From Acidobacteriaceae bacterium (GTDB taxonomy: Bacteria > Acidobacteriota > Terriglobia > Terriglobales > Acidobacteriaceae), in NCBI GenBank assembly GCA_021323655.1, contig JAJPKO010000010.1:1-64000 (forward strand): 64,000 bases of DNA. Direction: 5' to 3'. The number at the start of each line of letters is the position of its first letter. The first letter of the stretch is position 1. A program made the translations under genes and the position numbers. The notes below the pieces were generated by a model. It saw only the letters and a list, made by a program, of their open reading frames with translations, was not told the DNA's origin and made no database searches. Positions 29,382-59,968 of this stretch are shown here, one piece after another.

Positions 29382-29505
29382 ACATCTCTCTCCCCCACAC
29401 GTGAAAACGACGGCAGGAATTCAGGGCAAATTCCATGCTGCCGGAGCCTCTGGCTCCATTAGTAGTTGTTGAATATCTCTGCTGAGACGTAACACTTTGG
29501 TCAAC

Positions 29506-29534
29506 AAGGCAGGCCAGCACAAATGGCCTGCCTT
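29506..29534 (+). other. Strong leader hairpin before ribosome site
   Basis: AAGGCAGGCCA-GCACAAA-TGGCCTGCCTT is a perfect 11-bp stem with a 7-nt loop, 13 nt before GGAGG. No T-run follows, so it is not a simple terminator; it may stabilise the mRNA or affect initiation. Confidence 0.7.
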
Positions 29535-29562
29535 AAGAATTCAATTTGGAGGCTGGTTTTAT

Positions 29563-32500
29563 ATGCAAAAACGTATACATTTGCACCGAATGCGTTCTCA
29601 CCGGTTCGTGAGAACGCTATCTTGTCTCATCTTGGCTCTCCTGCTCCTTGCCGGCAGGCCCTCTCACGCCCAGCGCGCCGGAGGCACCATCAGCGGGACC
29701 GTGCAGGACTCGCAGCACGCCGTTGTTCCCAACGCACAGGTAATACTCGAAAACAGCGCCACAAAAGACAGGCGGATCATCACCACGAACTCAAGCGGCT
29801 TCTTCAACTTTGCCGCTGTTCCTGTGGGCACATACTCGGTCAGCGTTAAAGCGCCTGGGTTCCAACCCTATGTGGCAACAGATATTACCATTCACGCCGG
29901 AGATGACCGCGTTCTTCCGGACCTCCTTCTTCAGGTGTCAGGCTCTACCTCTGTGGTCCAGGTGACAGCTTCTGAGGCGGGCGTGATTCCGCTGGACAAT
30001 GGCGCCAGCAGCACGACAATCAACGAAACGCTGGTGCAAAACCTGTCTATTCAGGGACGTGATGCTGCCGAACTGGTCAAGTTCATGCCTGGACTGGCCA
30101 TGAACACGGGCCTTGGCCAAACTGAGTTCAACAGCCAGACGACCCAGACGAACAGTGGTCCTATCGGTGCTTTCTCTGCCAACGGCACCCAGCCTTATGG
30201 TTCCATGCAGATGACTCTGGACGGCGCGGGCCTGATTGATGTGGGAAACCAGGGCACGCAGATTGCCAATGTGAACCAGGACCAGACAGCTGAATTTACC
30301 TATCTGAATGCAGCCTTTGGGGCCGACACGCCGCGCGGCCCGAACATTATTCAGGTGACCAGTAAGGGCGGCGGTCAGCAATTCCACGGGGATGCTTACG
30401 CGTATCTGCGTAACTGGCAGTTGAACGCGAATGATCCTTATAACAAGGCGGTATCTCCGGGAATCCGGCGCGTCATTTCGCACCAGACGTACCCGGGCGG
30501 CACCATCGGCGGTCCGGTCATCTTTCCAGGGTTTGGTTATAACCGCAACCGTGACAAGCTCTTCTTCTTCGCCGGATACGAGAAGATGTTCCAGAACCCG
30601 GAAGCAAATCTTGTTCAGTTGGTGGTCCCTACAACGAACATGATTAATGGCGATTTCAGCAATCTTAGTAAAGACCCAAATGCGTGGAATACGGCGCAGC
30701 AGCCTTGTGTTAATGCGCCTTCATGGACCGGCTTCTGCCCTGGTGGCAAGAACCCATTTCCGGGCGGAATCATTCCGGCCTCGTACTGGGACCAGGACGG
30801 CCGCAATCTGCTGATGTACATGAACAAAATCAACCCGCCCAATATTGACCCTGCCACGCACAACGGCTACAACTTTCAGTTTCTGGACCATGAACCGGTG
30901 AACCGCTGGGAACTGCGTTTGCGCGGCGACTGGGACCCAACGCTGAATGACAAATTCAGCGTTGTTTATACCAAACAGAACGAAGCAGACATCAACAACT
31001 TCGGCATCTGGTGGTGGCCTTCATGGACTGCACCTATGCCTTCACAACTGAACGCGACGACAAAGGCGAACCTGTGGACGGCGAATTATGTCCATGTTTT
31101 CAGCCCTACTACTACGAACGAATTCAGCTTCGCATATACGTATTTCACTTTCCCGCCGAAATTTAAAAATCCTGCGGCGATGACAGCAGCCACGGCCAAC
31201 TACACAACGTATGCGCCATTTGATACCAGCAGCACCAATGCTTTCGACCAATTACCGAACATTCTCAGTTGGCAGGCCAGCACTGGCGCTTATTCGGGCA
31301 GCTTCGCCGGCATCTATGCACCGCCAATGATCAAAGGATTTGGCGGGGCCTATGGAAACATCAAGAAAATATATGCTTATCAGGACAACTTCACGAAAGT
31401 GCTCGGGCGCCACAGCCTGAAAGCAGGGTTTTTCTGGGACAGCAACAACCAGACCCAGACGACCGGCTACGGGAACTGGACGCAGGGAGCCATTGAGTTT
31501 GATCCCTGGGGATACTACACCACGAACAACCAGTATGCTGACATGCTGATTGGCCACACAGCAGGCATGTCACAGTACGCCGCTGCCCCTGTGCATGACA
31601 TGGCCTATCACGAATGGGCATTTTATGGGCAGGACCAATGGCACGTCACCAACAAATTCACACTCAACTATGGTGTGCGCTTCGATCACGAAGGCGCATG
31701 GTATCCAACGCGTGGCCCGGGCCTTGCGGTCTTTGATCCGTCCAGCTATGACAACACACCCAACGCCCCTACCTGGACAGGTATGAAGTGGCACCAGATT
31801 GACAGTAAAATCCCGCAATCTGGTTTTGTTTCACCCTTCGTGCAGCCGGATGTGCGCTTTGGAGGTGCATACGACGTCCATGGCAATGGCAGGACTGTTG
31901 TTCGTGGAGGCTTCGGCATCTATCGCTGGCAGTTCTCAGAGGGCGACGTGGATGCAGCGCTCAATCCTGCCTGGAACGTGCTGAGTATTTCAACTCCGGC
32001 AACGGAATCCTTCGCCGCACTCGCCTCTTATAAGCCCACTGCCAGCAGCACATGGTGCGCACTCAATTCCACCTGCCCCACCGGGGTGGATGCGATCAAA
32101 AAGGGCGAAAACAAGACGCCTTACACCATGAACTGGGACGCCATGGTTGACCAGGAACTTCCGAACCGGATGGTCTTTGAACTTCAATACATTGGCAACC
32201 ACACAGACAATGCTCTGTTTACCGGTAACGGGACGACAGAGAGCTTCATTTCCAATATCAACAAGATTCCGATTGGCGGGCTCTATGGTACGAACGCGCT
32301 TACCGGAATCAACTACTGGCAGCAGTCCTGCGCCCAGGGTTCCTGCGCCACGCCAAACAGTCAGTACTATAACGGCTATCGCCCCTATGCGAACTACGGC
32401 GTACTGAACCTTGTCCAGCACGGCAGCTACTCCAACTACAACGGAATGGTGGTTGCCCTGCAGAAGCAGACCGGTATGGCCACGTTCATCGTGAACTATA

Positions 32501-33255
32501 CCTTCAGCAAGGTCATGGGCATCCGCGATGGCCAGACAGACAATGGCGGTGGCGACGGTGTCACGATTGATCCGTTCCATGTTCGTGCCAACTATGGTCC
32601 GCTAGCGTATGACCGCACGCATCTTTTCAATGCGGCGTATTACATTACGCTTCCTGGCCTGCACGATGCTAATTTCTTCGTCAAAGGCATTATTAACGGC
32701 TGGCAGCTCTCAGGCGATACTCAGCTTCAGAGCGGAACACCGCTCCAACCCAATACCGGTGGAAATCTGAACGCGAAATGGCTGTCCAACTCCTCAGGCG
32801 CTTCAGCCAGTAACACGTATCTGCTGGGAACGAATGCTGTCGTCCTGTCACCCTATTTGAAATGCGATCCGCGAAGTGGAGGCGGAAAATACTTTAATCC
32901 CTCCTGCTTCCAGACCCCCTCGAAGATGGGCGTCAATGGGCCTGCGGTATGGCCTTACATCAAAGGGCCTGCGTTCTTTGTCTCAGATCTGGCAATAGCA
33001 AAGAGCTTTGCCGTTACCGAGCATCAGAACATCCAGCTCCGTGTCTCGGCTTTCAACTTCCTCAACCATCCACTGCCGCAGCTGGGCCAAGGCAATGACG
33101 ACAACCTGTACATGAATTGTGTGCAGAGCTCACCCTCGGCCATGGGTTGTGACGAAGGCGGCACAAACCAGAACCCAACCACCAACGGCAACGTGCAGTA
33201 CAAAGCAGCAAAACAGCACCGATATATGGAGCTTTCTCTGAAGTACAACTTCTAG
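29563..33255 (+). CDS. Oar-like TonB-dependent receptor 3
   Basis: The largest receptor of the window, 1230 residues from ATG 29563 (GGAGG at 29548). The basic N-terminus precedes a signal segment LSCLILALLLLAGRPSHA, then the regulatory-like domain GTISGTVQDSQHAVVPNAQV and a plug with GSMQMTLDGAGLIDVGNQ. The plug is phrased differently from receptors 1 and 2 (GRDAAELVKFMPGLAMNTG), and the barrel has many Asn/Gln-rich loops with Cys pairs, ending in ELSLKYNF. It probably imports a different substrate from the tandem pair. Control elements in the leader suggest induction by a sugar-type signal, but that is inference. Two hairpins close the gene at 33279 and 33323. Confidence 0.9.
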   Translation: MQKRIHLHRMRSHRFVRTLSCLILALLLLAGRPSHAQRAGGTISGTVQDSQHAVVPNAQVILENSATKDRRIITTNSSGFFNFAAVPVGTYSVSVKAPGFQPYVATDITIHAGDDRVLPDLLLQVSGSTSVVQVTASEAGVIPLDNGASSTTINETLVQNLSIQGRDAAELVKFMPGLAMNTGLGQTEFNSQTTQTNSGPIGAFSANGTQPYGSMQMTLDGAGLIDVGNQGTQIANVNQDQTAEFTYLNAAFGADTPRGPNIIQVTSKGGGQQFHGDAYAYLRNWQLNANDPYNKAVSPGIRRVISHQTYPGGTIGGPVIFPGFGYNRNRDKLFFFAGYEKMFQNPEANLVQLVVPTTNMINGDFSNLSKDPNAWNTAQQPCVNAPSWTGFCPGGKNPFPGGIIPASYWDQDGRNLLMYMNKINPPNIDPATHNGYNFQFLDHEPVNRWELRLRGDWDPTLNDKFSVVYTKQNEADINNFGIWWWPSWTAPMPSQLNATTKANLWTANYVHVFSPTTTNEFSFAYTYFTFPPKFKNPAAMTAATANYTTYAPFDTSSTNAFDQLPNILSWQASTGAYSGSFAGIYAPPMIKGFGGAYGNIKKIYAYQDNFTKVLGRHSLKAGFFWDSNNQTQTTGYGNWTQGAIEFDPWGYYTTNNQYADMLIGHTAGMSQYAAAPVHDMAYHEWAFYGQDQWHVTNKFTLNYGVRFDHEGAWYPTRGPGLAVFDPSSYDNTPNAPTWTGMKWHQIDSKIPQSGFVSPFVQPDVRFGGAYDVHGNGRTVVRGGFGIYRWQFSEGDVDAALNPAWNVLSISTPATESFAALASYKPTASSTWCALNSTCPTGVDAIKKGENKTPYTMNWDAMVDQELPNRMVFELQYIGNHTDNALFTGNGTTESFISNINKIPIGGLYGTNALTGINYWQQSCAQGSCATPNSQYYNGYRPYANYGVLNLVQHGSYSNYNGMVVALQKQTGMATFIVNYTFSKVMGIRDGQTDNGGGDGVTIDPFHVRANYGPLAYDRTHLFNAAYYITLPGLHDANFFVKGIINGWQLSGDTQLQSGTPLQPNTGGNLNAKWLSNSSGASASNTYLLGTNAVVLSPYLKCDPRSGGGKYFNPSCFQTPSKMGVNGPAVWPYIKGPAFFVSDLAIAKSFAVTEHQNIQLRVSAFNFLNHPLPQLGQGNDDNLYMNCVQSSPSAMGCDEGGTNQNPTTNGNVQYKAAKQHRYMELSLKYNF

Positions 33256-47561: not shown

Positions 47562-48611
47562 TTATTTCAGTGTGGACAGGTATGCCGTGACCTGATCGAG
47601 TTGCTGGTCGTTTAACTGCATCGCCGGCATCAGCGAGCCGGGCTTGAACGTGTCCGGGTTCCTGATCCACTCGCGCAGATGCTCAGGCGTATTCGTCGTC
47701 GCTCCGGAAGCAATGGTTTCCCGGCTCATCAGGTGGGTCAGGTCCGGTCCGAATCGCCCCGTCGCAGCCGTACCCGCAATCGTGTGGCAATTCATGCAGG
47801 CCTGGGTTTCAAAGACATGCCTGCCCTCTGCCACCTTCGGATCATTCACTGCCGGCTGCTGCTGGTTTTTCACCCATGCCGCAAACTGGTCCGGCGTATC
47901 CACATAGACACGCAGCAGCATCTTTGCATGTTCTACGCCGCAGAACTGCGCGCACTGACCGACGTAGGTTCCAGGATGGCGCGGATCAATCCACAAATAG
48001 TTGATCTTATTCGGTACCAGGTCCGTCTTGCCGGACAACTGCGGGACCCAGAAGCTGTGGATCACATCGGCGGAAAGCAGCGTCAGAAAAGTCGGCGTCG
48101 GATGGTTCGCATCGCTCAGTGGAACATGCAGCTCATTAACTCCGCGGATGCCAAGCCTGGGATAATTGAACTCCCACCAGTATTGGTGGCCCACCACCGT
48201 CACATCCAGCGCAGATTTCGGCTTGGGAGCGTCCTGAATGGCGAAGATCATGCGTGCCGTGGTGAGAAAAAGCACCACAACAATCAGGACCGGGACAACG
48301 GTCCAGGCCAGCTCAACCTGAGCAGAACCATAAATCTGCGCTGGCTCGCTCGTGTCGTCCTGCCCATGCTGGCGATACTTGAAAGCAGCATAGGCAATCA
48401 GCGATCCAACGGTAACAAAAATGCCGCCCGTAATGGCGATGACAAACAGCGACAGCTCGTAAATATTACTTGCAGGGGTAGAGGCAGGCGCAAAGATGCT
48501 CGGCGTGGATTGCGGCCCCTCCGCAAATACGGCATGCCATGCAAAGAACACAAGCAGAAATAAAAACCCTTTGGCAGACCACTTCACGCATCGATAAGGT
48601 TCTGTAAGCAT
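47562..48611 (-). CDS. ctaC: Cytochrome c oxidase subunit II with fused cytochrome c (caa3)
   Basis: This 349-residue protein has an N-terminal signal or first helix (KGFLFLLVFFAWHAVF), two membrane helices, and the cupredoxin domain whose CuA site is read in DVIHSFWVPQL and GQCAQFCGVEHAKM. A cytochrome c domain follows with ACMNCHTIAG and axial Met in GSLMPAM. The fusion defines a caa3-type oxidase. It is the first gene of the operon, with ATG at 48611 and a GGAAG site about 10 nt upstream. Its promoter must lie in the 400-bp gap beyond. Confidence 0.96.
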   Translation of the reverse strand: MLTEPYRCVKWSAKGFLFLLVFFAWHAVFAEGPQSTPSIFAPASTPASNIYELSLFVIAITGGIFVTVGSLIAYAAFKYRQHGQDDTSEPAQIYGSAQVELAWTVVPVLIVVVLFLTTARMIFAIQDAPKPKSALDVTVVGHQYWWEFNYPRLGIRGVNELHVPLSDANHPTPTFLTLLSADVIHSFWVPQLSGKTDLVPNKINYLWIDPRHPGTYVGQCAQFCGVEHAKMLLRVYVDTPDQFAAWVKNQQQPAVNDPKVAEGRHVFETQACMNCHTIAGTAATGRFGPDLTHLMSRETIASGATTNTPEHLREWIRNPDTFKPGSLMPAMQLNDQQLDQVTAYLSTLK

Positions 48612-49009
48612 CGTTTCTTAACTTCCTTCACCGCGCCAGATGAGAGCGAAGACAAGATTTTGAAGCGTATCGCACCCTCAGAAGCTCTGGCGTCCAGCGC
48701 TTTCCCTATGTCACCTCAATCGGCAAGGGAGCAGGCGACCAAGGGATGCCAAGGCCGACGACAGTGTCTCTGAAAATGCCGTTATAAAGGACCTGCTTCT
48801 TCAACCAAAGGCGTAAGCTCAGCGAAGAAACAAAGCGGCCGCTCAAACTTGCAAGCAGCGGGAATCATTACTCTCCAATTGTAACAGCACTGAGGCCTTT
48901 CTGCTTTGTTTACGGCGCAGAAATTGAGAAATTACCGCCCAGACCAGGACGAACATTTTCTTAATTTTGTTTTTGGATGCACCGCTTCTCGCAACGCGGA
49001 ACGCGCCCA
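48612..49009. other. Leader of the respiratory operon; no gene seen
   Basis: About 400 bp separate the flavoprotein gene from the caa3 operon on the same strand. No protein frame, hairpin terminator or consensus -35/-10 pair was found with confidence. It must hold the operon promoter, which may depend on an alternative sigma factor or an activator. Confidence 0.4.
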
Positions 49010-50131
49010 CTATAACGCACGCTCACTTGCAGCCGCCGGTAAAAAGCGGCGCACAATTCCTGAAAGGCGAAAAAGATTGAAGCCCTCCGCGTAGCTCTTG
49101 AGCACGGCGTTTCGCACAAACGGCATGCGCATCGCGCGGAAGCCACTTTCCGGCCTTGCATAAAAGGAAGTGGCCACACGTTCCGTAATGCGCAGGTTTC
49201 CGCGCAGTCCGGCCGTCAGCCCGGCAAAAGTCAGGCCCGCATCGGCGCCATGATCCAGCGCCGCGCTGATTGCGGAAGCCGCAGCCTGTCCGCTGGTGAT
49301 CGCACCGTAAATGCCCTCCCCGGTAAGTGGATCAGCAAACCCTCCGGCATCCCCGACCAGCAGAATGCGTCCCGGCAATGGGACATGCTCTCCCGCTCCG
49401 AAACCGAGATACTGCCCGATAAAGTTCTCCGCCGCCGCATCCCGCCCATACCGGGCCGCAATATACCCGGCGAGTCTGCCCTTGTCGAAAGAGCAGGTGT
49501 GCTCGGCAGAATACAGGCCAATATTCACATGATCACGCCGGGGAAAGACCCATCCATATCCCCTGGGCACAGGAGCAAAATCAAAAACCAGATCATCCCG
49601 GATCGCATTTCGCGAAAGATTGGCCTCAATGGCGAAGCCTCTGTGAAACCATGCCGCTTTCTGCGTCAGACGCCGCACCTGGCTGTTCACTCCATCCGCG
49701 CCAATAAGAAAGCGGCTGCGCCATTGGCCTTCGACGCTGAACAGTGACACGCCGTCTGCATCCTGCCCGATGCGCTCGATGCGCCCGATCTTCTGGAACC
49801 GCGCACCTGCTTCTATAGTCTTGTTCAGGCAGTACGCGTCCAGCTCTTCACGCACCGTCATGGCGCAGATCGTCTTTCCGCTGCGCACCAGAATGTGCGG
49901 TTCGCTCCGGGTCTCAATCACAATGCGCTGGACCGTCTTATGCACGACCGGCGCAACCGAATAGCGCAGTGCGCGCAGGGTCTTTGCCGTCAGTCCTCCG
50001 CCACAGGCCTTTTTGCGAGGAAAAGCGGCCTTGTCCAGCAGCAAAACAGACCTGCCCTGCGCCGCAAGATCATACGCGCAGGCGCATCCTGCAGGTCCAG
50101 CCCCTACCACAATGGCATCCCACTGCTCCAT
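49010..50131 (-). CDS. Geranylgeranyl-reductase-family flavoprotein
   Basis: This 373-residue FAD enzyme opens with IVVGAGPAGCACAYDLAAQG, the Rossmann dinucleotide fold. The second FAD motif is FLIGADGVNSQVRRL and the third LLVGDAGGFADPLTGEGIYG. The CGGGLTAKT element near residue 42 is typical of geranylgeranyl-reductase-type proteins, which reduce isoprenoid side chains or act as halogenase-like oxidoreductases. It is 14 bp after the GntR regulator and on the same strand, so they are likely co-transcribed, though an isoprenoid reductase with an amino-sugar regulator is an odd pair. Substrate unknown. Confidence 0.85.
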   Translation of the reverse strand: MEQWDAIVVGAGPAGCACAYDLAAQGRSVLLLDKAAFPRKKACGGGLTAKTLRALRYSVAPVVHKTVQRIVIETRSEPHILVRSGKTICAMTVREELDAYCLNKTIEAGARFQKIGRIERIGQDADGVSLFSVEGQWRSRFLIGADGVNSQVRRLTQKAAWFHRGFAIEANLSRNAIRDDLVFDFAPVPRGYGWVFPRRDHVNIGLYSAEHTCSFDKGRLAGYIAARYGRDAAAENFIGQYLGFGAGEHVPLPGRILLVGDAGGFADPLTGEGIYGAITSGQAAASAISAALDHGADAGLTFAGLTAGLRGNLRITERVATSFYARPESGFRAMRMPFVRNAVLKSYAEGFNLFRLSGIVRRFLPAAASERAL

Positions 50132-50145
50132 CTCTTTGCATTCGA

Positions 50146-50922
50146 TTATTCAATGGCCGTCATGGGAACACGAATGGAAGCACGGTAACGGTCGCCACGA
50201 TAGCGCGAACAGGCCGCCTCGACCGGCGTCTCCTGCGTAGTCATAATCACGCGCGTAATCGAGAGAATGCTCGCCTTGCGCGGAATCGTCAGCAGCTCCG
50301 CCTCTTCTTTGGTCGCTGCCAGCGCCTCAATCGTCTCGTCCGCATAGCCCACCCGCACTCCATAACGCTCGCGCAGGGTCTGGTAAAGAGAGTGCCTGGC
50401 AAAATCAATGCGTTCCAGGCCTGGAAATTGCTTCAGCGGAATATGTGAGTCCTCAATGGCCATAGGAATGCCATCGGCAATGCGCAGCCTGCGCAGGTGC
50501 AGGACCTGGTCCTCTTTTTCCAGCTTCAGCTTCTGCGCAATGTCATCTGCCGGGGCAATCACCGCCTGGTCCAGCAATTTGGAACTGGGCTTCATCCCGC
50601 GCTTTCGCATCTCTTCAGTAAAACCCTGAAGGTGCATGATGTTTTTTTCCAGCTTGGGGCGGGTCACAAATGTACCGCGGCCCTTTTCGCTGAAAGCATA
50701 GCCGCTGGTCTTTAATCCATGCAGGGCCTGGCGCGCCGTCATACGGCTCACCTGGTAGTGGCGGGAAAGCTCTTCTTCTGAGGCCAGGGGGTCTCCCTCA
50801 GAAAGCTCTCCGGACTGGATCTTCTCCATCAGGGCCCGCTGAATCTGGTAGTACAGCGGGATAAAACCGTTCTTGTCCAATGGGTGAAATGTTGCCTGGT
50901 TTTGTGTACGGCCCTTTGCCAC
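50146..50922 (-). CDS. GntR/UTRA-family regulator (NagR/YvoA-like)
   Basis: This 258-residue regulator starts with GTG at 50922. The N-terminal winged helix (about 20-85) has IPLYYQIQRALMEKIQSGEL and DPLASEEELSRHYQVSRMTA, then a UTRA ligand domain (about 105-245) with LHLRRLRIADGIPMAIEDSH and the C-terminal YRGDRYRASIRVPM. Homologues respond to amino-sugar phosphates. It is divergent from nanE (93 bp) and a candidate regulator of the TonB receptor and SIS gene further right. The gene also precedes the flavoprotein on the same strand. Confidence 0.93.
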   Translation of the reverse strand: MAKGRTQNQATFHPLDKNGFIPLYYQIQRALMEKIQSGELSEGDPLASEEELSRHYQVSRMTARQALHGLKTSGYAFSEKGRGTFVTRPKLEKNIMHLQGFTEEMRKRGMKPSSKLLDQAVIAPADDIAQKLKLEKEDQVLHLRRLRIADGIPMAIEDSHIPLKQFPGLERIDFARHSLYQTLRERYGVRVGYADETIEALAATKEEAELLTIPRKASILSITRVIMTTQETPVEAACSRYRGDRYRASIRVPMTAIE

Positions 50923-51015
50923 TTTAGTCCCTCAGTTTCTTACAGATTGCCAGAATTTCTACACTTCCGCGCATGCTCAATCATTTAATATGCGTAACAT
51001 GCCCGGCAGTTCTAT

Positions 51016-51702
51016 ATGACACCACCCGTTGCATTCCCTGCCAGCTTAAAAAACAAACTCATTGTCTCCGTACAGGCCATGCCAGGTGATCCGCTGGACG
51101 ACACTGGCGCGCTGCGCCGTATGGCCATTTCCGTTCTTCGCGGAGGAGCCGGCGGCCTGCGCGCCAATGGCCCGGAACACATTGCCGCGTTCCGGCGCGA
51201 GACTTCACTGCCCATCATCGGCATCTGGAAGCGCTTCGATGAAAATGGCCCTTTGATTACGCCTGATTTTCCATCCGCCAGGGCCGTCGCCGAAGCGGGT
51301 GCCGACATCATCAGCGTAGACTGCAGCGCGCACCGTCCCGCGTTTCTGGAGCCCTGGGCCGATTTACTTCGCAGCATCACGACCGGGCTCGGCAAACCTG
51401 TCCTCGCCGACATCGCCACGTTCCACGAGGCCCTCTCCGCCGAGAAAGCCGGCGCCAGTGCGGTCGCCACCACCATGTATGGATACACGCCCGAAACCAG
51501 AGGCCAGCGTTCCGTCCATTGGGAACTCCTCGAGCAGCTGGTCAAAGAACTTCGCATTCCAGTCATTGTCGAAGGCCACGTCCGCACTCCGGAAGATGTG
51601 CGCCGCGCACTCGACCTGGGGGCCTTCGCTGTCGTCGTTGGAGCAGCCATCACCCAGCCTGGATGGATCACCACGAGGTTTGCTGAAGCCATGAAACGGT
51701 AA
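51016..51702 (+). CDS. nanE: N-acetylmannosamine-6-phosphate 2-epimerase
   Basis: A 228-residue TIM-barrel enzyme that converts ManNAc-6-P to GlcNAc-6-P. Typical segments are LIVSVQAMPGDPLDDTGALR, RANGPEHIAAFR, LPIIGIWKR, GADIISVDCSAHRP, VLADIATFHEAL, ATTMYGYTPETRG and PVIVEGHVRTPEDVRRALDL. It lies divergent from the GntR gene. NanE is part of sialic acid and ManNAc use, but no nanA or nanK is in the window, so the substrate may come from elsewhere in the cell. Confidence 0.95.
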   Translation: MTPPVAFPASLKNKLIVSVQAMPGDPLDDTGALRRMAISVLRGGAGGLRANGPEHIAAFRRETSLPIIGIWKRFDENGPLITPDFPSARAVAEAGADIISVDCSAHRPAFLEPWADLLRSITTGLGKPVLADIATFHEALSAEKAGASAVATTMYGYTPETRGQRSVHWELLEQLVKELRIPVIVEGHVRTPEDVRRALDLGAFAVVVGAAITQPGWITTRFAEAMKR

Positions 51703-51784
51703 CTTTGCTCCATCGTTTTACCCATCCCAGACATCCCCGCCAGTCCTGATGCGAGCAATAAATTTTCCTTGTCTGCCTGATTTT

Positions 51785-51816
51785 TTGCTTGCTTGCCAGT
51801 ACAGTTGTCTATACAG
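51785..51816 (+). promoter_or_regulatory. Promoter-like element with GntR-type operator
   Basis: TTGCTT (51785-51790) is a weak -35 and a TCTATA/TATACA element near 51808-51815 a -10. The -10 overlaps TTGTCTATACAG (51805-51816), an imperfect TTGT-N4-ACAG dyad. The same motif is found upstream of the SIS gene. Confidence 0.45.
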
Positions 51817-51940
51817 TATGTGAAATCAGAAAGACAGTCCAGACAAATACTGCTGTTTTTTTGAAGCACCTGCCGCACAACGGACACAAGTTCCGTCTCG
51901 GCAATTCATCAACCCTCTTCCCTTTGGAGGTCCATCATCT

Positions 51941-54900
51941 ATGCGAGCACGCAACCTTTTTTCAAGTCTTTTGTTGCTGCTGGTGTGTTGTTCCGCGACG
52001 CTTGCCCAGACAATTACCGGGTCTATTACCGGCACAGTCACCGACGCAAGCGGTGCTGCCGTCAACGGAGCTACAGTCACCGCCATCAACACCGCTACCG
52101 GAGTCACGTTCCCAACACAAACCAATAACGCCGGAGTCTATACCGTGCGTTTCCTGCCTATTGGACAATACAAGGTCACAGTATCGGCTCCTGGCTTTGA
52201 AACATCCACCGTCGGTCCATTTGCTCTTGAAGTCGCTCAGGAAGCCCGTATTGATGCGAAACTGGTAGTCGGTCAAGTGAGTACCAATGTCGTGGTCACA
52301 AGCGCGGCGCCCATTCTGGATACCCAGAACGCGACAACCGGTGACACGATTACAGCAAAGGCTGCAACGGAAGTCCCTCTGCAGGCACGCAATTTCGCGT
52401 CCTTGTCCTTACTGGTTGCAGGCGCAATTGCCACCAACCCCAAGGCGCAGAACAGCGTCATGCGCTCAGCGTATAACGGCGGCTATTTCCAGAACGGCAA
52501 TCGCGAGCAAACAAATAACTACACGCTGGACGGCGCAGACATCAACGAGACCATTGACAACTACATCGGCTATAGCCCGAACGTTGATGCAATTGGCGAG
52601 ATCAAAGTCATCACCGGGGACGCCACTGCAGAATACGGTAACGCCAATGGCGGCCAGGTTGTCATGGTCACCAAAAGCGGAACAAACCACTTCCATGGCA
52701 ATGCTTTCGGGTTTCTGGAAAACCAGAACCTGAACGCGAACAGTTGGAGCAACAAGCATACGGCCGGAAAGGCCGCCCCCGTCAACCCATTCAATCGCTC
52801 CATCTTCGGCGGTACCCTGGGCGGGCCCATCAAGCGTGACAAGATCTTCTTCTTTGTGGATTACCAGGGTGCGCGGCAGAACACAAACTCCACTACTTTC
52901 TACACTGTCCCGACTGCTGCGATGCGGACTGGTCTGGTTCCCATCAATGGCATTCAAAAGCATTTCAACATCACCAATCCCGCTGCACAATTCCTGCTTT
53001 CACATCCGGAGATATATCCGATGGAAACCATTCCCGCCAACAATACAAACGGCGGTTTGATTCCCAATCGCAACTACTCAGGTTCTGAAAAGCAGTTCGT
53101 CAACAACAATCAGGGTGACATCAAAATTGACTGGCAAATCCGCCAAAGCGATCTCTTGTCAGGCCGGTTTACCATCGGGCGAGAGCAGGACGGCAACAGC
53201 ACTGTCAGCATCCCGACAGAAATTCCTACAGTAAACTCGAATCCGTATACTGGCTTCATCTTTAACTGGACCCACACTTTTTCACCCAACGTCGTCAGCG
53301 AGGCGCGTGCAGGATATGGACGCTCACGCTACATCGCCAGCCTTCAGGACATTGCCGGCCATTTCGGCCTGTCAGGAAATGCGAAGTTGGGTATCCCTGG
53401 AGTCCAGGGTGTACCGGGCTTCAGCGAATTTTCCTTCAGCGGCGGTACCGGTTTGTCCAACATCGGGCCAGGCGCTGGCGGCACGGCATCTGACAGCATC
53501 GCCAATACCTTCACATATGGGGACAACATCAGCTGGCAGCTTGGCAAGCACACCATCAAGTTCGGTGGGCAGGCCCTCCGTTACCAGCAAAACCGCTACT
53601 ATTCAGGCAATGATGGCGCGCTGGGCCAGTTCGGCTACAACGGAACATTCACAGGTGATAGCTTCTCTGACTTCCTGACCGACCAGTCTAATTTTTATGG
53701 TCAGGGCCAGAGCGTCGTTAACCGCTGGGGACACCGCCAGTGGCGCGATGCAGTCTTCTTCCAGGATGACTGGAAGGTCATGCCAAACCTGACCGTCAAC
53801 CTCGGCATGCGTTGGGAGTACGACCAGCCCATCTATGAGGTCAACAACAAGCAGGTCAATTTCAACATCTATACAGGCGCTGTCAGCTTTGCCGGGAAAA
53901 ACGGGGCCAGCCGGGCACTCTACAACGCATATTGGGGTGGATTCATGCCGCGCCTCGGCTTTGCTTTCTCGCCAGAGCGTTTTCATGACCGGTTTGTAGT
54001 GCGTGGCGGTTACGCCATTACCAACTTTATGGAAGGGACCGGAGCTAACCTGCGCCTTACGCTGAACCGGCCCTTCTTTGTGGATTCCTCCGCGAATGCA
54101 ACTACCGTCGGCTTCAAAACAGAAAATGGTTTCCCCCGGCCTGCCGACCTGGGCGACTATACAGGTCAAAACATCCGTGCATGGCAACCAAATCTCAAGC
54201 CGGCGCTTATTCAGCAGTTCAACCTGACAACGGAAACTCAATTCGGAAACGAAATGTCTCTGGTGATCGCCTATTTGGGGCAGGTTGGAAATCATCTTGT
54301 TGACCCGCGCGAAGGAAACCAGGCGCCCTGCTCCCTCGTTGCACTTCCAACTCAGCCCACCCCCTGCGTAGTGCCATTCTCAAAATTTGCTCCGGCAAAT
54401 GGCATCAACATCAGTGGAGTCAGCGTAGTCAGCTATACCGAGTCTGAGGCCATGATGAACTACAATGCGTTGCAGACATCGCTCCGCAAACGCACCAGCA
54501 ACGGCCTCGAGTTCCTGGCCAACTACACCTATAGCAAGTCGCTTTCAAACAACCTGGGCTATTATGGCGCAGGCGGTGTTGCCTCTCAGTCAGCATATTG
54601 GCAGGATGCCTACAACGGCGGCGCCGACTACGGCCCGGCCTTCTTTGATGCCACACACACCTTCTCGTTCTCCGGATATTACGACCTTCCCTTTGGACGC
54701 GGGAAAATGTTCGGCTCAAACATGAACCGCTTTGAAGACGTGTTCGTGGGTGGCTGGAAACTGGGAGCAGTCGCCAGCCTGCACAGCGGCTTTCCTGTCA
54801 CGATGTCATCCCCGCAGGTCTACAAAGCAAACCAACGCACCAACCGCGCCATGCACTATCGTCCGCTCCGGGTCAACCACAGGTCCACAGACCACTGGTT

Positions 54901-55243
54901 TGGAACGGATGCTTCCGCAGTACCCTGCACGAATACCGGCTCCAGCCTGGCAAATGACAATGGCAGCTGTGCCTACGGCGAAGAGCTGGCGACGGGCTTC
55001 GGGACCTCACGGGTAGGCTCCGAGCGCGCCCCCAGCTACAAGGACTTCGACATGGCAGCCAGCAAGCAGTTTGCCATCACAGAAGGCAGCAATCTGGAGT
55101 TCCGGGCTGATTTCTTCAATCTTCTGAACACTGTCAGCCTCGGCGCTCCAACAAACGATGTCTCCAGCGCAACCTGGGGACAGATCACCAACACCAACTC
55201 AACGGAACGCCAGATCCAGCTTGCCTTAAAGTTCACCTTCTAA
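51941..55243 (+). CDS. Oar-like TonB-dependent receptor 4 (amino-sugar locus)
   Basis: This 1100-residue receptor starts at ATG 51941 behind TTGGAGG. The signal peptide is NLFSSLLLLLVCCSATLAQ, followed by the regulatory-like domain GSITGTVTDASGAAVNGATV and a plug with NYTLDGADINETIDNYIGYS and GNANGGQVVMVTKSGTNHFH. The barrel ends QIQLALKFTF. Position between nanE and the SIS gene, and the operator shared with the latter, suggest it imports an amino-sugar-containing glycan. The gene is closed by the terminator at 55263. Confidence 0.9.
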   Translation: MRARNLFSSLLLLLVCCSATLAQTITGSITGTVTDASGAAVNGATVTAINTATGVTFPTQTNNAGVYTVRFLPIGQYKVTVSAPGFETSTVGPFALEVAQEARIDAKLVVGQVSTNVVVTSAAPILDTQNATTGDTITAKAATEVPLQARNFASLSLLVAGAIATNPKAQNSVMRSAYNGGYFQNGNREQTNNYTLDGADINETIDNYIGYSPNVDAIGEIKVITGDATAEYGNANGGQVVMVTKSGTNHFHGNAFGFLENQNLNANSWSNKHTAGKAAPVNPFNRSIFGGTLGGPIKRDKIFFFVDYQGARQNTNSTTFYTVPTAAMRTGLVPINGIQKHFNITNPAAQFLLSHPEIYPMETIPANNTNGGLIPNRNYSGSEKQFVNNNQGDIKIDWQIRQSDLLSGRFTIGREQDGNSTVSIPTEIPTVNSNPYTGFIFNWTHTFSPNVVSEARAGYGRSRYIASLQDIAGHFGLSGNAKLGIPGVQGVPGFSEFSFSGGTGLSNIGPGAGGTASDSIANTFTYGDNISWQLGKHTIKFGGQALRYQQNRYYSGNDGALGQFGYNGTFTGDSFSDFLTDQSNFYGQGQSVVNRWGHRQWRDAVFFQDDWKVMPNLTVNLGMRWEYDQPIYEVNNKQVNFNIYTGAVSFAGKNGASRALYNAYWGGFMPRLGFAFSPERFHDRFVVRGGYAITNFMEGTGANLRLTLNRPFFVDSSANATTVGFKTENGFPRPADLGDYTGQNIRAWQPNLKPALIQQFNLTTETQFGNEMSLVIAYLGQVGNHLVDPREGNQAPCSLVALPTQPTPCVVPFSKFAPANGINISGVSVVSYTESEAMMNYNALQTSLRKRTSNGLEFLANYTYSKSLSNNLGYYGAGGVASQSAYWQDAYNGGADYGPAFFDATHTFSFSGYYDLPFGRGKMFGSNMNRFEDVFVGGWKLGAVASLHSGFPVTMSSPQVYKANQRTNRAMHYRPLRVNHRSTDHWFGTDASAVPCTNTGSSLANDNGSCAYGEELATGFGTSRVGSERAPSYKDFDMAASKQFAITEGSNLEFRADFFNLLNTVSLGAPTNDVSSATWGQITNTNSTERQIQLALKFTF

Positions 55244-55262
55244 GCTGGAGCAGCCCTCTCAG

Positions 55263-55294
55263 GGGCGTGGATTTCTTCCACGCCCTTTTCTTTT
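55263..55294 (+). terminator. Terminator after TonB receptor 4
   Basis: GGGCGTGG-ATTTCTT-CCACGCCC is an 8-bp perfect stem followed by TTTTCTTTT. It separates the receptor from the SIS gene, which then needs its own promoter. Confidence 0.9.
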
Positions 55295-55314
55295 CAGAAA
55301 AAATAGCGGTATAG

Positions 55315-55326
55315 CTGTCCATACAG
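55315..55326 (+). promoter_or_regulatory. Candidate GntR operator before SIS gene
   Basis: CTGTCCATACAG is an imperfect CTGT-N4-ACAG palindrome, 27 bp before the SIS start. It matches the element at 51805-51816 in ten of twelve positions, consistent with a shared regulator. Confidence 0.5.
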
Positions 55327-55352
55327 GCGCGATTTAAGCGAAAATAAAAGCC

Positions 55353-56471
55353 ATGCCCCGTTCGTTTCCTCATGCTATGCTGCGCGAAATTTACGAGCAG
55401 CCCGAAGCGCTGTCGGCCACCATCCGGAATTACGTTTCCGAGCACGCCCTTAACCCGGGGGCCTTCGCCTCGGTTGCCGAGGCATTGCGCGGACATCAGC
55501 GTGTTGTCATCGCCGCCAGCGGATCCAGCCGTCACGCCGGCCTCGCAGGCGAGATCATGCTCGAAGACCTGGCAGGACTGACTGTGGACGTCGAATACGC
55601 GAGCGAATACTGTTACCGCTCCACACACACGCTTCAGGACCCCGGTGTCATCGTCATTTCGCAGTCCGGCGAAACCGCCGACACGCTGGCCGCGCTCCGC
55701 GAAGGCAAAGCGCGCGGCCTCTCTACCATCGCCATTACCAACAACTCAAACTCCACCATGGCGCGCGAGGCCGATGCCTCTCTGCCTACCATCGCGGGGC
55801 GGGAAAAAGCCATCCCTGCCACCAAGAGCTTCACCACGCAGCTTGCTGTCCTCTATCTCCTCACGCTTTCCATGTCTCGCCTGCGTGGGCGCATGACCGT
55901 GCACTCCGTTTCCAATCTTATTGATCAACTGGAGGCGCTTCCGGGCCTGCTCGAGCGCTCACTGCCTACGTGGGAAGAGCAGCTTCACACAGTGGCCGAA
56001 CACACAAGGAACGCCCGCGGCTTTCTCTACCTGGGTCGCGGCATCCATTACGCCATCGCTCGCGAAGGAGCGCTCAAGCTCAAAGAATCCGCCTACATTC
56101 AGGCCGAGGGTTATCCCGCAGGCGAACTGAAGCACGGCCCGAACGCACTCGTCACCAAAGAATCTCCGCTGGTCATGCTCGCCACGCAGGACCGCAACGA
56201 CCCGGATTCTGTTCTGCGCTATGAAAAGACCCTGCAACTAATGAAGGACATGCAGGCGCAAGGCGCCGAGATCATCGCGCTCGCCACGGAAGGCGACAGC
56301 GAAGTACCACAGGTCGCGCGCTTCACTATCCCGGTCCCCAACGCCAGCGAATACCTGTTGACTATTTTCGAAGTGGTTCCCCTGCAACTCTTCGCCTACT
56401 TTACCGCCATCCTCCACGGAGTGGACGTGGACAGCCCGCGCAATCTGGTCAAGGCCGTAGTGCAGGAATAA
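55353..56471 (+). CDS. SIS-domain sugar-phosphate isomerase/deaminase (GlmS-C/NagB-II like)
   Basis: A 372-residue protein made of two SIS domains, the same as the isomerase half of glucosamine-6-phosphate synthase but without the glutaminase domain. Typical text is VVIAASGSSRHAGLAGEIML, VIVISQSGETADTLAALREG, AREGALKLKESAYIQAEGYP, GELKHGPNALV and the tail DVDSPRNLVKAV. Such stand-alone proteins are often glucosamine-6-phosphate deaminases (NagB-II) or related aldose-ketose isomerases. In this context it would feed GlcN-6-P into glycolysis. The start may be 55353 or 55374; neither has a strong ribosome site. A deaminase rather than isomerase role is an inference. Confidence 0.85.
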   Translation: MPRSFPHAMLREIYEQPEALSATIRNYVSEHALNPGAFASVAEALRGHQRVVIAASGSSRHAGLAGEIMLEDLAGLTVDVEYASEYCYRSTHTLQDPGVIVISQSGETADTLAALREGKARGLSTIAITNNSNSTMAREADASLPTIAGREKAIPATKSFTTQLAVLYLLTLSMSRLRGRMTVHSVSNLIDQLEALPGLLERSLPTWEEQLHTVAEHTRNARGFLYLGRGIHYAIAREGALKLKESAYIQAEGYPAGELKHGPNALVTKESPLVMLATQDRNDPDSVLRYEKTLQLMKDMQAQGAEIIALATEGDSEVPQVARFTIPVPNASEYLLTIFEVVPLQLFAYFTAILHGVDVDSPRNLVKAVVQE

Positions 56472-56524: not shown

Positions 56525-59500
56525 TTAGAAGAGGAACTTTGCCCCAAACTGCAGGACGCGTGGATCGTAAGTCGAAGTCAACTGCCCAAAGTTCGAGTTA
56601 GTGAACCCCGTGCTCACATTCTGAAATTCCGTATGGTTAAAGGTGTTGTACGACTCGGCGCGAAGCTGGATTCTCGGGCCTTCAGCTGACGTAATCCGGA
56701 CCTCCTTAAACAAGCTCAGATTCCAGTTAAAGAGTCCCGGACCTACAACTGCGTCCTTGCCCGAGTTGCCAAAGCCGGCGTTCGGTCCAGTTGATCCTGA
56801 AACCCAGGGAGCGACAGGCGCCGAGAAGGCGGCCGTGTTAAACCACGCTGTCGGCTTCTTCGGGTAGCTGACATGACCGGAGAGATTTGGCCGGTTGCTA
56901 CCGCCTCCCAGTCCGAGCACATCGGTTCCGTAAGATGGCCCTGCCGGCACACCGCTTTCAGCCACGGTAATGCCGGAAATCTGCCATCCGCCAAGGACCG
57001 TCCTTGCCAGCGCACTGTTCGAGTGCAGGAAGAACGGCAGCTCGTAGATGTAGCTTGCGTTAAAGATATGACGGCGGTCGAGTGTGCCTGAACCACGGTC
57101 ATATTCCAGATTGAATGGGTTGGAAACTCCCTGCAGATCGCCGCTCTTGATGTCAATCTCATGCGAATAGGTATAAGCAAACTGGAGCGTGAGCCCATGT
57201 TTGTTTTCCATGCGCAGGACCGACTGCAGGGAGTGATAGTTGCTGTTGGTCTCGTTTTCGTTGAGAGTAATGTTAGCCCAGCCGGGGAACTGCCGGTAGA
57301 GGTTCGCATTCGCCCCATTGGCGACCGCCTGGCGATGAGCATAGCCCGAAGAATCGCTCAGCGGCAGCGTGTTGATGTTGCGCTGGTCATCCTGGTGCCA
57401 TCCCGTCATGCCCACGTACTGCACGGCGAAGACAACCGATGGCGCAAGCTCCTGCTGCACGCCAAGGCTGAACTGCGTCGTTCCTGGATTGTCATAGTTC
57501 ATTGCCAGAGCATTAAAGTTGCTCGGAGAAGTGGGCGTTTTGGCCACAGCTCCGTCCGTCGTCACGTTCGGATTTGAGAACGTAACGCTGCTGACCGAAG
57601 GCTGAAAAGCAAACGGCGGGTTGGTATCTGTGCCGTAAATGTCATTGCCCTGAATACGCTCAAAGAACAATCCAAAGCCTGAGCGAATGACGGTCTTACC
57701 ATTGCCGAACAGGTCGTAAGCAAAACCAACGCGAGGCTGAATGGTCCCATAAGAGTTATGCACCAGTCCCCGCGGAAACCCGTTGACGCAGGCAAGATGC
57801 ACGCCATTCAGGTAATACGGTACAGGAGCGCCCGAGGGCTGGCTGAATCCAGGCCCACTTGGGTTCAACGTTCCATCCGACGCAGGTACCTGCGCGTTGG
57901 CAAGGTTGAAGTCTACCGGAACAAAGTTCGACGTGCGATTGTTCTTTTCATACACGTGCGGCAGTCCGTCATAGCGCACGCCAAGGTTTAACGTAAGCCG
58001 TGGCAACACATGCCAGTTGTCCATCGCATAACCTGAATACGTATTGTTCAGCCAGTGGGCTGTCCACTGGTTCTGGAGCTGGGTATAGCTGCTGGCAAAT
58101 CCGAGCAGGAAGTTCACATAGGAATCGCCGGAGAAGGCCGAATCATTAAAGGTGTAATCGCCCTGCGTATCCGCCTGCACCTGCTGGTTCTTGTCCATGC
58201 GCATATATGAGAAGCCAAACTTCAGCGAATGCGCGCCTTTGGTCCACGACAGATCATCGCGAATCTGGTAATTCAGGAACGAGTTGTGCCACGGCCAGTA
58301 ATTGGTCGTCCAGGTCGTGCCGGGGCCTACGCCATTGAAGGAGACGGAAGGCAGCCGGTTCCCTGCATTGTTGCCGGTAAAGATGCCGGTGGCGCTCCAT
58401 CCCGAAGGCTGCTTGTAGATTCCCGTCGGAGTAATATCAATGGTGTTGCCATTCACATTCACCGCAGTCTCATTCAGCAGCGTGGGTGAAATCATCTGGC
58501 TCAGCTTTACCACCGCGCCCCACGACGGGTTCTTGAAGACGTTGCCCACCGTATCATAGCTGTCGCTGCTCCACATCGAGGGGAAGATGGTCTGCGACAT
58601 GTCGTCGTGGATCCAGTGCCCCATCAGGTGCAGCTTGTCCGTCAGGTCGTGGTCAATGCGCACCACGTCTTCACGCACATCCGTTGGCTGCTTGGGAGAA
58701 GCCACCCACTGGTTCGTTCCCAGGTTCGGCCTGGGAATCGCGCCCGTCCCCATAAAGAGTACCGCATTCGGATCAAAGAGCTGGTGCGGGATTGTCGAAA
58801 CGCAGGAATTCGGCGCGCTGCACGTATACGGGAACGGCTGACCTGGCGTCAGGCCCAGCGCCGCATACTGGGCCAGCAGTGCCGGATTCTTTGTCTGCGG
58901 CACAACCGGAAGCACCGCCGTCGATTGACCTGTCGCGTCCGTCCTGGTGTAGTCCACATACTGCAGGTCCTGTCCCGCAACTGGGAAATTGGAACCAGGA
59001 ATAGTAATTGTCGCGTTGGGATTCGCGCCCTGAATAAACTTTCTCCACTCTTCATTCACAAAGAAGAATGTCTTTTTCAGCAGTGGTACTTGTCCGCCCA
59101 GATTACCGCCAAAGATGTTGAGCCGAAGCTCAGGAATCTTCTGGTTCGCCTGCTTTGAGAAATAGTTGTTGGCGTCAAAAATGTCGTTGCGGTTAAACTC
59201 CCACAGCGAGCCGTGATACTTCTGCGTGCCCGACTTCAGCACCATCGTGATCGTGCCGCCGGAAGAGATCCCATAGTCAGCGCTGTAGTTGCTGCTCAGC
59301 GTCTGAAATTCCGCAATCGCATCCGGAGAAGGCAGTACGCCAATCTTTCCGCCACTACCGCGGTCATACACTTCGCCGCCATCAATCAGCCAGTTGTTGT
59401 GGTCCGGACGCATTCCGTTGAAGCTCAGGTTGAATGAGCTGCCCTGCGCCGTAACACCGTTGAACGAAGGATTATTGTTGGAAACGCCACTACCCAGCGC

Positions 59501-59968
59501 CGTCAGCGCAATCACATTGCGTCCGTTGGTAGACAGCTGTGATATCTGCTTATTGCTGATGAGGGAGCTGACTTCGTTCGTCTCCGACTGCACCTGCAAG
59601 GCATTCGCCTGCACCGTGACTGTCTGGCTGGCCACGCCTACTGTCAGCTGCGCATCGGCGCGCAGTGTTTGCGCCACGTTCAAAACAAGTCCCGACTTCT
59701 TGTAGCTCTGGAACCCGGGCGCATTGATGGAAAGGTCATACGTCCCGTGGTTCAAACCGGAAAAATCATACAGTCCGGTCGCGCTGGTCACTGTGGAGCG
59801 CGTGGCCCCGGTTGCCGTGTCCGTGATGGTCACAGTCACGCCGGCGACGGCTGCGCCCGACTGGTCGGTGATTGTACCTGTAATGTCTGCGTTCTCCTGC
59901 GCGTATGCGGTCAACAGCGCGCAAAGAGCAAAGATGCTCAGGACGAACAAATGCTTCCAATCTCTCAT
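56525..59968 (-). CDS. Oar-like TonB-dependent receptor 5
   Basis: This 1147-residue receptor starts at ATG 59968 with signal peptide WKHLFVLSIFALCALLTAYA. The regulatory-like domain has GTITDQSGAAVAGVTVTITD, and the plug has NGRNVIALTALGSG and LSFNGMRPDHNNWLIDGGEV. The barrel ends LQFGAKFLF. The plug phrases NGRNVI and MRPDHNNW differ from the other four receptors, so it belongs to a separate subgroup. It converges on the SIS gene, so it is not part of the GntR regulon by position. A promoter with TTGACA lies about 143 bp upstream. Confidence 0.9.
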   Translation of the reverse strand: MRDWKHLFVLSIFALCALLTAYAQENADITGTITDQSGAAVAGVTVTITDTATGATRSTVTSATGLYDFSGLNHGTYDLSINAPGFQSYKKSGLVLNVAQTLRADAQLTVGVASQTVTVQANALQVQSETNEVSSLISNKQISQLSTNGRNVIALTALGSGVSNNNPSFNGVTAQGSSFNLSFNGMRPDHNNWLIDGGEVYDRGSGGKIGVLPSPDAIAEFQTLSSNYSADYGISSGGTITMVLKSGTQKYHGSLWEFNRNDIFDANNYFSKQANQKIPELRLNIFGGNLGGQVPLLKKTFFFVNEEWRKFIQGANPNATITIPGSNFPVAGQDLQYVDYTRTDATGQSTAVLPVVPQTKNPALLAQYAALGLTPGQPFPYTCSAPNSCVSTIPHQLFDPNAVLFMGTGAIPRPNLGTNQWVASPKQPTDVREDVVRIDHDLTDKLHLMGHWIHDDMSQTIFPSMWSSDSYDTVGNVFKNPSWGAVVKLSQMISPTLLNETAVNVNGNTIDITPTGIYKQPSGWSATGIFTGNNAGNRLPSVSFNGVGPGTTWTTNYWPWHNSFLNYQIRDDLSWTKGAHSLKFGFSYMRMDKNQQVQADTQGDYTFNDSAFSGDSYVNFLLGFASSYTQLQNQWTAHWLNNTYSGYAMDNWHVLPRLTLNLGVRYDGLPHVYEKNNRTSNFVPVDFNLANAQVPASDGTLNPSGPGFSQPSGAPVPYYLNGVHLACVNGFPRGLVHNSYGTIQPRVGFAYDLFGNGKTVIRSGFGLFFERIQGNDIYGTDTNPPFAFQPSVSSVTFSNPNVTTDGAVAKTPTSPSNFNALAMNYDNPGTTQFSLGVQQELAPSVVFAVQYVGMTGWHQDDQRNINTLPLSDSSGYAHRQAVANGANANLYRQFPGWANITLNENETNSNYHSLQSVLRMENKHGLTLQFAYTYSHEIDIKSGDLQGVSNPFNLEYDRGSGTLDRRHIFNASYIYELPFFLHSNSALARTVLGGWQISGITVAESGVPAGPSYGTDVLGLGGGSNRPNLSGHVSYPKKPTAWFNTAAFSAPVAPWVSGSTGPNAGFGNSGKDAVVGPGLFNWNLSLFKEVRITSAEGPRIQLRAESYNTFNHTEFQNVSTGFTNSNFGQLTSTYDPRVLQFGAKFLF

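Follow-up and report, generated by a model that had tools for sequence, protein, structure and literature searches.

A predicted NagR-type regulon combining an Oar-type outer-membrane receptor and a GlmS-derived SIS protein in Acidobacteriaceae

The window, that is, the whole 64,000-nucleotide stretch of acidobacterial DNA analysed here, carries the four genes that the first-pass annotation had grouped together as an amino-sugar system, and each of them was confirmed. The gene on the minus strand (50146–50922) encodes a GntR/HutC (UTRA) regulator of the NagR type, a proposed repressor, in which Pfam recognizes both the GntR winged helix and the UTRA domain. The other three genes lie on the plus strand. 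The first (51016–51702) encodes a NanE family protein, a putative N-acetylmannosamine-6-phosphate 2-epimerase scoring above the cut-off of NCBIfam PRK01130; the second (51941–55243) an Oar-type outer-membrane receptor, proposed to import amino-sugar glycans; and the third (55353–56471) an SIS protein that corresponds, judging from NCBIfam scores and Pfam SIS domains, to the isomerase half of GlmS without the glutaminase domain. The regulator gene is flanked on the left by a geranylgeranyl-reductase-like gene. This gene and coxB (47562–50131 of the window) adjoin the regulator in several relatives too, for no obvious reason. To the right of the SIS gene, in the opposite direction, lies a second OMP_b-brl_4 receptor gene, whose product shares 26% identity with the first receptor. 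Besides the first receptor, two more large OMP_b-brl_4 receptors are encoded within the 64-kb window (29497–33255 and 56525–59968).

The common sites that had been claimed near the receptor and SIS promoters are also present. On the basis of motif match and conservation, we assigned a putative receptor-gene operator, TTGTCTATACAG (51805–51816, plus strand; extended form GTACAGTTGTCTATACAGT), and a putative SIS-gene operator, CTGTCCATACAG (55315–55326, plus strand; extended form GTATAGCTGTCCATACAGG), the cores of which begin 135 and 37 bases upstream of the respective gene starts. The window contains no other exact match to YTGTCYATACAG; in 100 dinucleotide shuffles of the window, exact matches averaged 0.01, and no shuffle contained two. 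With two mismatches allowed, the window was unremarkable (11 matches, 7.6 expected).

The whole genome to which the window belongs showed no excess of the looser core TGTNYATACA (23 matches versus 19 for the reversed control). Most of the 21 matches other than the two operators lie within a long frame, and four do not clearly do so. Core matches were found at the start of the gene for ATP synthase A (L087), upstream of a short-chain dehydrogenase gene (L088), adjoining an Hsp70 gene (L094), and, as the weaker TGTTCATACA (L091:1501–1510; G000:C17:93808–93817), just upstream of another OMP_b-brl_4 receptor gene. No recognized amino-sugar gene is located at these four places, and the TGTTCATACA core could be either a chance match or an additional target. 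A one-mismatch search of the same genome gave 35 matches, 30 of them with loci, mostly within long frames. Four of these matches were rejected because the genes behind them, encoding a RES domain protein (L020), a PAP2 protein (L025), a kumamolisin prodomain (L027), and ThiO (L013), are not amino-sugar genes.

The sites persist in relatives despite altered gene order. Equal sites were found in the upstream regions of four genomes (G070, G017, G035, and G066). In G035 the receptor and SIS genes point away from each other, both with a site of their own, and in G066 the SIS site is kept while the only receptor nearby is a 26% paralogue, not an orthologue. The receptor site is intact in G017 although the receptor is only 45–47% identical; in this single-contig genome (3.7 Mb), the core TGTMYATACA occurs four times, two of which are at the receptor and SIS promoters. 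Seven named acidobacterial relatives possess the regulator, and an exact site precedes the receptor or SIS gene in five of them (a Silvibacterium MAG, two other MAGs, Paracidobacterium acidisoli, and Acidobacterium sp. S8), several named relatives being the same genomes as some of the numbered ones, so that the two sets overlap. No site was found in the fetched stretches of KBS 146 and dw_441, where no SIS gene was found.

Upstream scans of the other genes covered part of each set, namely 12 nanE, 22 regulator, and 9 receptor genes. An exact site was found for six of the nine receptor orthologues. The receptor gene of G270 (64% identity) is divergent from the regulator gene with an exact site between them; the orthologues of G157, G235, and G386 (58–59%), beside or near the regulator, have no site upstream. 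Both sites are kept in G118, where the first stands before a gene for a 313-residue DoxX-like membrane protein (L269:11222–12163), which takes the place of the receptor gene of relatives. Eight of the 22 regulator genes have a site of their own with at most one mismatch (five exact), while the regulator gene of the window has no site upstream of itself. Exact cores also occur at other promoter-like places, such as those of an acetyl-CoA synthetase (G070, L176) and a sugar transporter (G066, L159), among others. In G066, further exact cores lie between two divergent amidohydrolase genes (L180:2001–2010) and by OMP_b-brl_4 receptors (L164 and L184).

The SIS-gene site follows the presence of the regulator. 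Among 398 sampled genomes of the family, the regulator was found at an E value of 1e-85 or better in 36, spanning 8 of 79 genera; 30 of the 36 were used, and six with 55–63% identity (G059, G139, G298, G323, G350, and G388) were left out. The 300 bases upstream of the SIS gene were compared between 29 genomes that encode a regulator orthologue and 20 that do not, the latter including G023, G043, and G044, which are not documented by name as searched for the regulator. Not counted were G232, which gave no match, G079, because of a contig edge, the second of the G019 copies, and any match at or below about 52% identity. Of the genomes with the regulator, 26 of 29 had a site with at most one mismatch to TGTNYATACA, compared with 2 of the 20 that lack it; for exact sites the numbers were 10 of 29 and 0 of 20. 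Many of the 29 belong to one genus, and with one genome per lineage the ratio was 6/7 versus 2/20 (Fisher, 6e-4), where genus g34 was entered as two lineages because it has two site types. With g34 as a single lineage it was 5/6 versus 2/20 (Fisher, 0.002). Among 300 permuted patterns the maximum was five of the seven lineages, reached by two patterns. G039 and G031 have no regulator orthologue, yet carry a one-mismatch site upstream of the SIS gene.

A link to amino-sugar genes was also evident in relatives. The order regulator, nagA, and divergent SIS gene was observed in 11 of 24 genomes checked, all from genus g34, and an exact site lies 34 bases upstream of nagA in G035. A nagA site with at most one mismatch was found in 14 of 29 genomes with the regulator versus 2 of 13 without it (Fisher, 0.04; the count omits G141, with no match, and G079); 12 of the 14 are the common nagA–SIS divergent promoter of one genus, and the other two are the exact G035 site and a site in G157, 204 bases away, that may be due to chance. 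In the other 15 of the 29, nagA has no site at this level. The nagA gene of the genome containing the window (contig C56) is preceded by a degenerate block, GACTATACAGCTATACA, within the 49-base gap to the neighbouring gene, and the block is conserved in this genome and in G017, G070, and G118; it is possibly a nagA operator. In contrast, none of the 12 nanE genes scanned, including the window copy, has a site with at most one mismatch upstream. Thus, the proposed tie of a NagR-like regulator and its sites to amino-sugar genes is supported by the nagA–SIS clusters and by the G035 site, whereas for nanE, a frequent neighbour of the regulator in relatives, the scanned genes give no support for membership in the regulon. 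The genome-wide association expected by the first-pass annotation is weak in the genome of the window, which shows no excess of sites and only the degenerate block at nagA. Among the genes examined, no kinase or inner-membrane transporter was linked to the system.

A second amino-sugar locus exists in the genome of the window (L111:628–13479; G000:C44:95000–109000). It contains genes for an OMP_b-brl_4 receptor, a PIG-L deacetylase, a nagA-like protein, a GH20 enzyme, an aldose epimerase, an SSS symporter, and a nagB-like protein; the best site score there was 10.2 versus 19.6–27.4, and none is near operator strength. In dw_441 (L194:10737–17965), the regulator and nanE genes are followed by genes for a fucose-isomerase-like protein, an SSF symporter, an FGGY kinase, and a ROK protein, suggesting a different sugar role in that neighbourhood.

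The best solved relatives of the regulator are Bacillus subtilis YvoA/NagR and Streptomyces DasR. An alignment showed that 13 of the 15 phosphosugar-contact residues of NagR, taken from the available text of PMC4333415, are identical, and the remaining two are replaced (glycine for serine and leucine for isoleucine). Three paralogues in the same genome keep 12, 9, and 9 of the 15 contacts. The contacts do not single out one effector, because the paralogue on contig C32 keeps 12 of them. This paralogue (L082; G000:C32:135472–136197) is a GntR/UTRA protein of 41% identity with proline in place of R48, and no amino-sugar family was found among the five neighbours scanned (L112).

According to the same text (PMC4333415, as far as available), R38 and R48 of NagR read the G at −5 and the G at −4, respectively, and T frequently replaces the G at −5 in one half of natural sites. 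Our regulator retains R48 and the wing glycine (G69) and has E50 in place of R38. The operators, GTTG-TCTATA-CAGT (receptor) and GCTG-TCCATA-CAGG (SIS), share with NagR and DasR operators the six-base half-site spacing and the G at −4, but position −5 is T in each half. The classical dre operator, GTGG-N6-CCAC, was therefore not matched; since the G at −5 is lost, we use the label NagR-type and do not speak of NagR with a dre site proper. In 21 aligned sites, for which the core letters and position −4 were fixed by the search pattern, only the flanking and N positions were free, and close relatives were counted singly, the free position −7 is G in one half in 19, a further feature in common with NagR and DasR operators. 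The change at −5 is not strict, since four g34 genomes (G034, G319, G270, and G331) have GGTATAGACA upstream of the SIS gene, retaining G at −5 in one half. From these sequences we infer that the regulator is a repressor whose dre code has shifted.

The SIS protein (372 amino acids) contains only SIS domains, with no N-terminal glutaminase domain detected by Pfam. In this respect it resembles the NagB-II (SO_3506 type) and GlmD deaminases, which likewise belong to the SIS family and lack that domain. However, it is far nearer to GlmS: the NCBIfam scores were 360–374 bits for GlmS models, 136 bits for NagB-II, and 97 bits for GlmD, all below the curated cut-offs (430 bits for NagB-II). The annotation as a NagB-II-like SIS protein is corrected in this respect. 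Equivalents of GlmS K485, E488, H504, and K603, which we take to be the catalytic residues, are invariant in 13 aligned SIS sequences. A separate full-length GlmS candidate is encoded elsewhere in the genome (G000:C61:468063, open frame of 652 amino acids), and no protein of the genome exceeds the NagB cut-off; the simplest reading, given these two facts, is that the GlmS-derived protein is a predicted glucosamine-6-phosphate deaminase. NagB-like genes scoring below the cut-off are present on contigs C55, C44, and C47, and their products could be the deaminase instead.

The receptor has an N-terminal CarboxypepD_reg domain and an OMP_b-brl_4 barrel, a pair that presumably marks the Oar type. 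Pfam found no plug domain, the fold prediction was poor (pLDDT 40.7), and a sequence search found no solved barrel. In other genera, receptor orthologues accompany the regulator or lie close to it. SusD was absent among the six window proteins scanned with Pfam; on the basis of this absence, the receptor may act instead of a SusCD pair. The genome encodes several Oar-type receptors without an assigned cargo and, to our knowledge, this large family of OMP_b-brl_4 receptors mostly lacks cargo assignments.

Starting from the genes, the sites, their conservation, the link to the regulator, and the conserved effector-contact residues, all of which are observed, we consider it probable that a NagR-type regulon governs the GlmS-derived, NagB-II-like enzyme and the Oar-type receptor and is released by GlcNAc-6-phosphate or glucosamine-6-phosphate. 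DNA binding, the direction of control, the effector, the receptor cargo, and the enzyme activity are predictions of this model. The NagR-type repressor would occupy the dre-like operators of the receptor and deaminase promoters. A rise in either phosphosugar, derived from GlcNAc glycans such as chitin or peptidoglycan, would release it; the receptor would then take up more oligosaccharide, and the deaminase would convert glucosamine-6-phosphate to fructose-6-phosphate. In some relatives, the regulon would also include nagA, and the regulator gene would have a site of its own. The DoxX case in G118 and the NagB-like genes slightly lower our confidence in this regulon.

Another phosphosugar, such as ManNAc-6-phosphate, may be the effector, with a role in cell-wall recycling, sialic acid, or other sugar metabolism and not in the use of GlcNAc glycans. 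The frequent adjacency of NanE, the effector contacts shared with paralogues, and the other sugar genes beside nanE in dw_441 would fit this, but the sites accompany nagA and the SIS gene in relatives and none of the scanned nanE genes, and we regard it as rather unlikely. We consider it improbable that the conservation reflects ordinary core promoters, with TATAGT/TACAGT and TATACA as approximate −10 boxes, and not operators. The conserved stretch does contain TAYAG and TATACA, and the nagA block has two copies of CTATACA in its 49-base divergent gap. A core promoter, however, should persist without the regulator, in conflict with the 26/29 versus 2/20 distribution of the SIS site, and the conserved TGT half, which is no component of a −10 box, lies outside any such box.

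The enzyme may also be questioned, since SIS proteins have several activities, and NagS, a GlcNAc-6-phosphate dehydratase, was described in 2025 (PMC12680351). In the part of that report available to us, NagS is placed near MurQ and has true orthologues only in Streptomycetaceae. The SIS protein resembles GlmS from end to end and possesses the GlmS catalytic residues, so a NagS-like dehydratase or another SIS sugar enzyme in place of the deaminase seems improbable as well. The NagR-type regulon with a predicted deaminase remains our preferred reading.

Control of amino-sugar genes by GntR regulators is of a known kind, exemplified by NagQ, Bacillus NagR, and DasR, as far as the accessible parts of the literature go. 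The targets here differ from those of NagR and DasR in including an outer-membrane receptor. In the accessible sections on Proteobacteria, the NagQ (GntR) and NagR (LacI) regulons likewise control nagA and nagB, and uptake permeases belong to their core, while none is linked here. TonB receptors are included in LacI-type NagR regulons of two Xanthomonas species, and the NagQ motif consists of tandem repeats (PMC5343134, in part); in Shewanella, a Nag receptor has been assigned, and NagR is again of the LacI type (PMC2996990, in part). Within these sources, the proteobacterial regulator associated with receptors is thus of the LacI type, whereas ours is of the GntR type. A 2018 genome paper proposed porins for GlcNAc entry (PMC6252331, in the portion available). 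Our search of the open-access literature, with subscription papers outside its scope, found no description of the acidobacterial regulon; as far as that literature shows, the regulon is new, as are its shifted operator and the inclusion of this receptor family.

Acidobacteria are abundant in soil. The conserved operator links one Oar-type receptor to amino-sugar catabolism, giving a testable cargo and a route to others. We tentatively suggest, at somewhat less than even confidence, that this acidobacterial lineage re-tuned the NagR/dre code, exchanging R38 for glutamate and the G at −5 for T, and brought an Oar-type OMP_b-brl_4 receptor under it for SusD-free uptake of GlcNAc glycans. If this is true, regulon mapping could assign cargo to other OMP_b-brl_4 receptors.
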